A stretch of DNA of 47,570 nucleotides. It comes from Actinomycetota bacterium. GTDB taxonomy: Bacteria > Actinomycetota > Actinomycetes > Nanopelagicales > Nanopelagicaceae. The stretch lies in assembly GCA_016870455.1 (NCBI GenBank), contig VGBN01000005.1:1-47570 (forward strand). The letters are read 5' to 3'. Below the pieces are notes generated by a model that was not told the DNA's origin, did not search any database, and worked only from the letters and a program-made list of their open reading frames with translations. The position numbers and the translations under genes are program-made. Of this stretch, positions 10,739-12,607 are shown piece by piece. How positions within the stretch are numbered: the stretch's first letter is position 1; every line of letters starts with the position of its first letter.

Positions 10739-11430
10739 TGAAAAGTCCCATAATCTTTGCTTTAGATACCAAAGAGATCGATACCGCCGAAAAATGGATA
10801 CTTGCGGCTTCAGAGCATATAGATCACTTTAAAATTGGTTTAGAGTTTTACTTACTCCATGGAAGTGATGGAATTGAAAGGCTTCAACAGCAGGCTGAGT
10901 TTGAACTTTTCTTAGACCTAAAGTTATATGACATTCCAAACACTGTAAAAGCCGCAGTTGAATCAGTGGCAAGATTAAAACCGAAATTTCTCACTGTGCA
11001 TGCATCAGGCGGTAGCGCCATGATCTCAGCAGCTAAAAGTGCTCTGCCAAACGGTTCAATTACCGCCGTAACAGTTTTAACCTCATTCTCTGAAGCTGAA
11101 TTTACTTCACTAGGGTTTACGCAAACTATTGATCAAGTCGCTACAAGTTGGGCGAAGATGGCTGTTTCAGCTGGCGCTACCTCAATTGTCTGCTCACCAT
11201 TTGAGGTATCAAGTTTAAGAGATGCACTTCCAAAAACAGTTCTGATTACACCTGGAGTTAGAGATGTTGGTGATGATCATGGCGATCAGGTTCGAGTAAT
11301 GACCGCACAAGATGCCATTAGAGCAGGATCTGATTTTGTTGTAATTGGCAGATCTATTACAAATTTATGGGATGGTTCAGATAAAGCCATGCGCACTAAA
11401 ATTGAGCAAATACGAAGCTCAATCAACTAA
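10738..11430 (+). CDS. pyrF: Orotidine 5'-phosphate decarboxylase, type I
   Basis: This 230-residue barrel carries out the last step to UMP. The catalytic D-K-x-x-D array is visible as FLDLKLYDIPNTV (about residues 59-71), with FALDTKE at the N terminus and the phosphate-binding TPGVR and VIGRSIT near the end. These motifs define type I. Mycobacterium and Streptomyces have the longer type II form with AKRGDI. GAGGAG ends 4 nt before the ATG at 10738, which overlaps the pyrD stop by one base. pyrE is not in this operon. Confidence 0.94.
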   Translation: MKSPIIFALDTKEIDTAEKWILAASEHIDHFKIGLEFYLLHGSDGIERLQQQAEFELFLDLKLYDIPNTVKAAVESVARLKPKFLTVHASGGSAMISAAKSALPNGSITAVTVLTSFSEAEFTSLGFTQTIDQVATSWAKMAVSAGATSIVCSPFEVSSLRDALPKTVLITPGVRDVGDDHGDQVRVMTAQDAIRAGSDFVVIGRSITNLWDGSDKAMRTKIEQIRSSIN

Positions 11431-11432
11431 TT

Positions 11433-12299
11433 ATGTTGCCTCCACGACTAAGTAGGAGATCACGCAGGAAAGCTGGTCAAAAAGCTGTTCTAGCCAGACA
11501 GGAGCGAGCAAGAGTAAAAGAGGAGATCGCAAGCGGTGAAAAATTCTTTTTTGAACTCTTTGCTGATGAGCGAAAATCTATTAAACGCATGAAGTTGGTC
11601 GACTTGCTTCAATCAGTTCCTGGTATCGGCAGAATTCGAGCGGATCTAATCATGGATAGAGCCGAAATCTCCTCATCACGTAGAATTGGTGGTGTTGGCA
11701 AACGCCAACTTGAAATCTTGCGACAGGAGTTTTTGTTGGCTAAAAACTCACCTAGAAATGGCAAACTATTAGTGGTATCAGGCCCAAGTGGTGTTGGAAA
11801 GAGCACACTGACTAATAGGTTACGAGATGATGATCGGTTTTGGATCTCAGTATCAGCAACAACGCGAAGTAAACGTATCGGAGAAAAAGATGGAGTTGAT
11901 TACCATTTTGTCTCCGATAAAGAGTTTGATCAGATGATTGAGAAAAATGAGTTCTTAGAGTGGGCAAATTTTGCCGGCGCAAAATACGGAACACCTCGAA
12001 AAGCAGTTGATAAGGCATTAGCTAGTGGGAAAAATGTTGTTCTGGAGATTGAGTTAAATGGAGCAAGGCAGGTAAGGAAAAATTCTAAAGATGCAGTGTT
12101 GATATTTATTGAGCCACCCACATGGGAGGAGTTAAAATCTAGATTGGAGAAAAGAGGCACTGAATCAGAGGATTCAACGCAAACTAGGTTGGATAGGGCC
12201 AAGGAGGAGCTCTCAGCCGCCTCAGAATTTGATCATGTGATCGTAAATCACCAAGTGGCTGACTCAGTGGCCCAACTGGTATCTTTAGCCATTCGCTAA
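11433..12299 (+). CDS. gmk: Fusion of integration host factor mIHF and guanylate kinase
   Basis: One uninterrupted 288-residue frame holds two proteins that are normally separate neighbours in actinobacteria. Residues about 1-103 match mIHF: a basic helical start (ARQERARVKEEIASG) and the helix-two-turns-helix core LLQSVPGIGRIRADLIMDR and SSRRIGGVGKRQ, which bends DNA. After a linker of a few residues, guanylate kinase begins at about 111, with the P-loop GPSGVGKST (117-125), the GMP-binding region SVSATTRSKR and GVDYHFVS, and the lid region. Gmk turns GMP into GDP. A possible internal start lies at 11736, so free Gmk might also be made. The start ATG is 2 nt after pyrF. A sequencing error joining two frames cannot be excluded but seems unlikely. 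Confidence 0.93.
   Translation: MLPPRLSRRSRRKAGQKAVLARQERARVKEEIASGEKFFFELFADERKSIKRMKLVDLLQSVPGIGRIRADLIMDRAEISSSRRIGGVGKRQLEILRQEFLLAKNSPRNGKLLVVSGPSGVGKSTLTNRLRDDDRFWISVSATTRSKRIGEKDGVDYHFVSDKEFDQMIEKNEFLEWANFAGAKYGTPRKAVDKALASGKNVVLEIELNGARQVRKNSKDAVLIFIEPPTWEELKSRLEKRGTESEDSTQTRLDRAKEELSAASEFDHVIVNHQVADSVAQLVSLAIR
11725..11738 (+). promoter_or_regulatory. Possible internal ribosome-binding site and TTG start for free guanylate kinase
   Basis: AGGAG at 11725-11729 is followed after 6 nt by an in-frame TTG at 11736 (codon 102), just at the mIHF-Gmk junction. No in-frame ATG or GTG lies close by. Translation starting here would give a normal-length Gmk of about 187 residues. This is inferred from spacing only. 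Confidence 0.35.
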
Positions 12300-12328: not shown

Positions 12329-12607
12329 ATGAGTAATCAAGCGTTAGATGGAATCACAAACCCACCAATAGATGCTTTATTGGATAAAGCTGGTTCAAAA
12401 TACAGTTTGGTTCTTTATGCTGCTAAGCGAGCTCGACAGATTAATGCGTATTACTCCCAACTAGGTGAGGGATTACTTGAGTATGTCGGCCCATTAGTTG
12501 AAACCTATGTACATGAGAAACCACTTTCCATTGCACTTCGTGAAATCAATGATGGTTTACTCTCCATAGAGAATCTAGAGCCAAAGCAAACAACTCCAGC
12601 GAGTTAA
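12329..12607 (+). CDS. rpoZ: RNA polymerase omega subunit
   Basis: The 92-residue protein carries the omega signature [28 protein letters not shown] in its first half. Omega stabilises the beta' subunit during RNA polymerase assembly. AAGGA is placed well before the ATG at 12329. It lies 29 nt after mihF-gmk and 5 nt before coaBC, the conserved actinobacterial order gmk-rpoZ-coaBC-metK-priA. Confidence 0.94.

Follow-up and report, generated by a model that had tools for sequence, protein, structure and literature searches.

We describe a gene of a small-genome actinobacterium in which the DNA-bending nucleoid protein mIHF and the GDP-making enzyme guanylate kinase (Gmk) are read as one protein. 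It lies in the window, that is, the whole stretch of 47,570 nucleotides that was analysed. Comparison with related genomes makes it probable that the stop codon of mihF was lost, that the start of gmk was retained, and that the gene makes two predicted products, mIHF-Gmk of 32.6 kDa and free Gmk of 20.9 kDa. The codons at the junction of the two domains indicate that selection acts on the internal gmk start in the clade of this genome (clade A). The frame has no stop or frameshift between its mIHF and Gmk parts, and the features discussed here are the following.

11433 to 12299, plus strand: fused mihF-gmk open reading frame of 288 codons, ATG start, TAA stop; 288 aa, 32.6 kDa, pI 9.9.
11442 to 11732, plus strand: actinobacterial IHF domain (mIHF/sIHF, S13-like H2TH), NF041260 over cut-off, Pfam PF22525 (H2TH_5).
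11725 to 11729, plus strand: AGGAG, Shine-Dalgarno core of the proposed internal gmk start, 6 nt before the TTG at 11736, anti-Shine-Dalgarno duplex of -6.9 kcal/mol.
11736 to 11738, plus strand: TTG (codon 102), proposed start of free Gmk (187 aa, 20.9 kDa), with NTG at this or the adjacent codon in 40/40 clade-A genomes.
11760 to 12290, plus strand: guanylate kinase domain, TIGR03263, with P-loop GPSGVGKS and SVSATTR.
12277 to 12285, plus strand: TGGTATCTT, extended -10-like element within the terminal codons of gmk and probable rpoZ promoter, its TGNTANNNT being conserved in the family.

Both domains are complete. Residues 4-100 match NF041260 (actino_IHF) over the full domain with 85.3-87 bits (cut-off 60), residues 110-286 match TIGR03263 (guanyl_kin) with 234.9-235.9 bits (cut-off 160.45), and Pfam is in agreement (H2TH_5 and Guanylate_kin). 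The preliminary description had placed a complete mIHF at residues 1-103 and a complete Gmk from about residue 111 of the same frame, which was right within a few residues. NF041260 is typed "equivalog_domain" by NCBI, which would fit curators having seen this domain within longer proteins. The relatives of known structure are sIHF (4itq, residues 2-100) and mIHF (6tob, residues 4-100) for the first part and the Gmk of M. tuberculosis (1znw, residues 109-287) for the second. Among 30 fused proteins the H2TH signature I79 S80 ... R84 ... G87, G89, Q92 was invariant or nearly so, and in Gmk the residues G117 P118 G122 K123, S141 T143 T144 R145, Y157, E176, and Y185 G186 T187 were invariant, in accordance with the earlier statement that both parts are intact and do not form a decayed pair. 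In the AlphaFold2 model, calculated from an alignment of 43 rows (the window and related loci), both domains were folded with a mean pLDDT of 94.6; a long helix (90-105) ends the mIHF part and is followed by a short linker at about 106-111, with a pLDDT of 74 in the block 101-110. The closest PDB fold to this model was M. tuberculosis Gmk (1s4q). The genomes that were checked held one copy of mIHF and one of Gmk, both at the fused locus; a profile search gave no second copy of either over the cut-offs, and the few extra matches to the Gmk model were weak and below cut-off. Considering the invariant residues, and the obligate fusions of other lineages, whose single copy must serve both functions, both domains are probably active, the predicted activities being DNA bending and the conversion of GMP and ATP to GDP and ADP.

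That a sequencing or assembly error merged two genes is practically excluded. Three single-contig genomes of the same genus (G008, G011, and G019; 76-78% identity) also have the frame open, and it runs at full length without stop in most of the 201 genomes sampled from the order, all of one family (f1, to which this genome belongs), and nothing was found in favour of such an error. A missed frameshift at the junction and an assembly join are thereby ruled out, in line with the preliminary description. This description had held that an in-frame stop between the domains in related genomes would speak against the fusion. Such stops do exist in sister genera (g7 and others), but they represent the ancestral state and do not point to an error, since the gene is fused in all genomes of the own genus that were found to have it. 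A programmed frameshift at TTTTTG (11730-11735), which would free mIHF, was also considered; a TAA comes next in the -1 frame here, but run and stop are not kept in relatives and this candidate was rejected.

The fusion is a recurrent and widespread architecture and not a single-genome curiosity. The idea that it is peculiar to this organism found no support in a search of Nanopelagicales and other actinobacteria, such as the preliminary description had called for. Within f1, the genomes examined from genera g5, g7, g8, g11, g13, and g15 carry mihF and gmk as separate genes. A scan of 396 genomes of the phylum considered best matches only and could therefore have overlooked fusions whose mIHF part has diverged; among the matches listed, the full-length frames without stop outside f1 were all in family f9, in whose clade the named Leucobacter sp. 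OH1287 (Microbacteriaceae) falls. In f9 the gene was fused in 115 of 120 genomes. In five f9 genomes (G604, G606, G678, and G680, of 1.4-1.7 Mb, and G659, of 2.1 Mb; L237-L241) gmk was not matched as mIHF-fused. Four further fused genes, from a third family (f101), came out when 395 genomes of the class were searched with a profile. Elsewhere in the phylum scan, many genera have mihF and gmk in a common frame, separated by one stop.

The tree built from the concatenated alignment of mIHF and Gmk (63 rows and 288 columns, f101 left out) placed g8, g15, g5, and g13, all with separate genes, at the base of f1. Two fused clades were seen, clade B with g2, g3, and g16 (support 100/99) and clade A with the own genus g1 and g12, g4, g6, g9, and g14 (support 98/92); the sister of clade A is the group of g7 and g11, with separate genes, which also holds the fused g10. 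One shared fusion for f1 and the Microbacteriaceae was rejected (AU p = 4.6e-5); the fusion thus arose a minimum of two times among Actinobacteria, and probably more often. A single fusion within f1 was not rejected (p = 0.24), and a regain of the stop codon in g7 and g11 is possible. The linker is short and differs among clades. The fused gene of g10 (L163), which sits on a long branch with the separate g7 and g11, has a much longer linker and is possibly a further independent fusion.

The internal start was analysed in 40 genomes of clade A (g1, g4, g6, g9, and g14). All of them have an ATG, GTG, or TTG 14-17 codons ahead of the P-loop, and the junction follows the pattern GAG-NNN-NNN-NTG; the single genome of g12 has no internal start at the junction. 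The start codon is ATG or TTG in the own genus, ATG, GTG, or TTG in g4, where it is mostly preceded by an AAGGAG-like sequence, and TTG or GTG in g6 and g9. At column -15 from the P-loop, the Leu/Val codons were NTG in 23 of 31 cases against 7.4 expected (p = 4e-9, top of 55 Leu/Val columns), and the Glu codon at -18 was GAG in 37/40 genomes against 56% overall (p = 4e-7, top of 18 Glu columns), these binomial p-values being optimistic because the genomes are related. An NTG at -15 was present in only 1 of the 11 genomes with ATG at -14 and in 26 of the 29 without it (Fisher p = 3e-6); this near mutual exclusion is what would be expected if one start is needed. The combination of NTG with a Shine-Dalgarno pairing of -5 kcal/mol or better was found in 31/40 clade-A genomes, while synonymous shuffles gave a mean of 12.8 and a maximum of 19. 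It was present in 15/15 genomes of the own genus and 13/15 of g4; in g9 and half of g6 the pairing was weak. The controls, clade B (4/32) and f9 (3/44), were both at the level of the shuffles, and the fusion therefore appears to be obligate there, with no internal start.

At the site in the window, the pairing of the internal start (-6.9 kcal/mol) is better than those of rpoZ (-5.6), metK (-3.9), and coaBC (-3.1). Taking the window gene alone, 32 of 200 synonymous shuffles were equally good and TTG is a weak start codon; the case for the internal start thus rests on the clade, and what this gene alone would suggest is modest. An intragenic promoter for gmk alone was rejected, no enrichment of a promoter-like element (extended -10) having been found inside the mIHF part.

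The events that could have led to this gene are best seen in the sister genus g7, where the stop TAG of mihF directly adjoins the in-frame ATG of gmk (L153, L217, and L218), so that one point mutation would yield the fusion with the start intact. We propose that mihF lost a stop codon lying just ahead of gmk in the same frame and that gmk retained its own ribosome-binding site and start codon after the fusion. Initiation at 11433 would then give the 32.6-kDa protein, and initiation at the TTG at 11736, guided by the AGGAG at 11725-11729, would give the 20.9-kDa one. In this scheme mIHF would be present solely in fused form, and the free Gmk may keep the enzyme independent of DNA binding. The view that one protein is necessarily made finds no support in the junction, with its conserved ribosome-binding site and start codon for a free Gmk.

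The gene belongs to the run carB-pyrD-pyrF-mihF/gmk-rpoZ-coaBC-metK-priA, named by sequence inspection, and is flanked by the end of pyrF at 11430 and the start of rpoZ at 12329. The pyrF stop lies 2 nt ahead of the mihF start at 11433, which lacks a Shine-Dalgarno sequence; this suggests that the mihF part may be coupled to the translation of pyrF. At the other end, TGNTANNNT was found in the last gmk codons of 76/76 fused genes of the own family, where synonymous shuffles gave 4.5, and of 16/17 separate genes (1.0 expected from the same shuffles). The extended -10-like element stands at the same place in loci L082-L110 and L195-L234 and in the Microbacteriaceae loci, and in this last family TANNNT was present at the gmk end in 38/44 against 1.9 expected. 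The conserved element is probably the promoter of rpoZ and the genes beyond.

It is conceivable that only the fused protein is made, that all Gmk is tied to the DNA-binding domain, and that the codons at the junction are kept for the amino acids they encode, as the EFLL-like end of the mIHF helix. The Microbacteriaceae and clade B, with obligate fusion and no internal start, indicate that such a state is viable, and in the AlphaFold2 model the mIHF helix reaches residue 105, through the proposed start. The signal described above is synonymous, however (GAG over GAA; TTG or GTG over other Leu/Val codons), it is confined to the columns of the Shine-Dalgarno core and the start codon, and Met, Val, and Leu interchange as NTG; we consider this explanation quite unlikely. 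Two products from one gene is the reading we retain for clade A.

A separate matter is whether the fusion serves any purpose. It could be neutral, with one product or two, a co-translated pair having lost its stop and gained only a fixed ratio, with no nucleoid-linked nucleotide metabolism; to this we give slightly better than even chances. The many genera in which a single stop codon separates the in-frame pair speak for it, as do the adjoining positions of mihF, gmk, and rpoZ and the polar effect that deleting mihF has on gmk and rpoZ in M. tuberculosis (PMC6155035). The retention of the free Gmk start suggests, too, that the requirement does not lie in the tether. Against neutrality, the fusion arose in at least two independent lineages and is retained almost universally in two families, which suggests that it is at least not costly. 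That the fusion links guanine-nucleotide supply to the state of the chromosome or to the stringent response seems to us very unlikely. The same pair was fused recurrently in the same order, and the Gmk of several Gram-positive groups is a target of (p)ppGpp, both of which favour this coupling, but nothing in the sequence suggests that a regulatory site was gained, the clades differ in their short linkers, and free Gmk is probably also made in clade A. Selection might instead hold nucleoid-bound (fused) Gmk and free Gmk at a set ratio, with the bound form supplying GDP at the chromosome, an arrangement that would have come from joining two essential genes with the start of the second retained; this is a tentative proposal that we would rate as unlikely.

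In M. tuberculosis mIHF is essential and is reported among the ten most abundant proteins (PMC6155035), and the step from GMP to GDP generally runs through Gmk. A kinase is attached to every molecule of mIHF in the fused lineages, which bears on the use and stoichiometry of nucleoid proteins in reduced genomes. The genomes offer a natural series of the fusion, from separate genes with stop and start abutting (g7), to fused genes with the start kept (own genus), to fused genes with the start gone (g2, g3, and the Microbacteriaceae). No paper on the mIHF-Gmk fusion was found in the open-access papers searched (searches on mIHF with guanylate kinase, Microbacteriaceae Gmk fusions, and Nanopelagicales gene fusions), and the fusion must be present in public Microbacteriaceae annotations. 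What is new is the conserved internal start, which makes a two-product gene likely in clade A.

By comparison with known systems, the mIHF part agrees with mIHF (Rv1388) and sIHF (SCO1480) in its complete NF041260 domain over the curated cut-off and in the neighbourhood pyrF-mihF-gmk-rpoZ; the proteins of Mycobacterium and Streptomyces are stand-alone, of about 105 aa, whereas here the domain is the N-terminal part of a protein of 288 aa. The Gmk part is, like bacterial Gmk (Rv1389/1znw, TIGR03263), a complete enzyme with P-loop and GMP-binding residues and the sole copy of the genome, but it has an N-terminal DNA-binding domain added, and a free form could arise only via the proposed internal start. 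The Microbacteriaceae fusion has the same two domains in the same order and in one frame, and differs in its independent origin, its different linker, and a junction that lacks a conserved internal start. Examples of genes that make a long and a short protein through an in-frame internal start are infB, clpB, and cheA; as in these, a Shine-Dalgarno sequence and an NTG are conserved inside the open frame at a domain boundary, but here the internal start would be the inherited start of a once separate essential gene, retained after the fusion.
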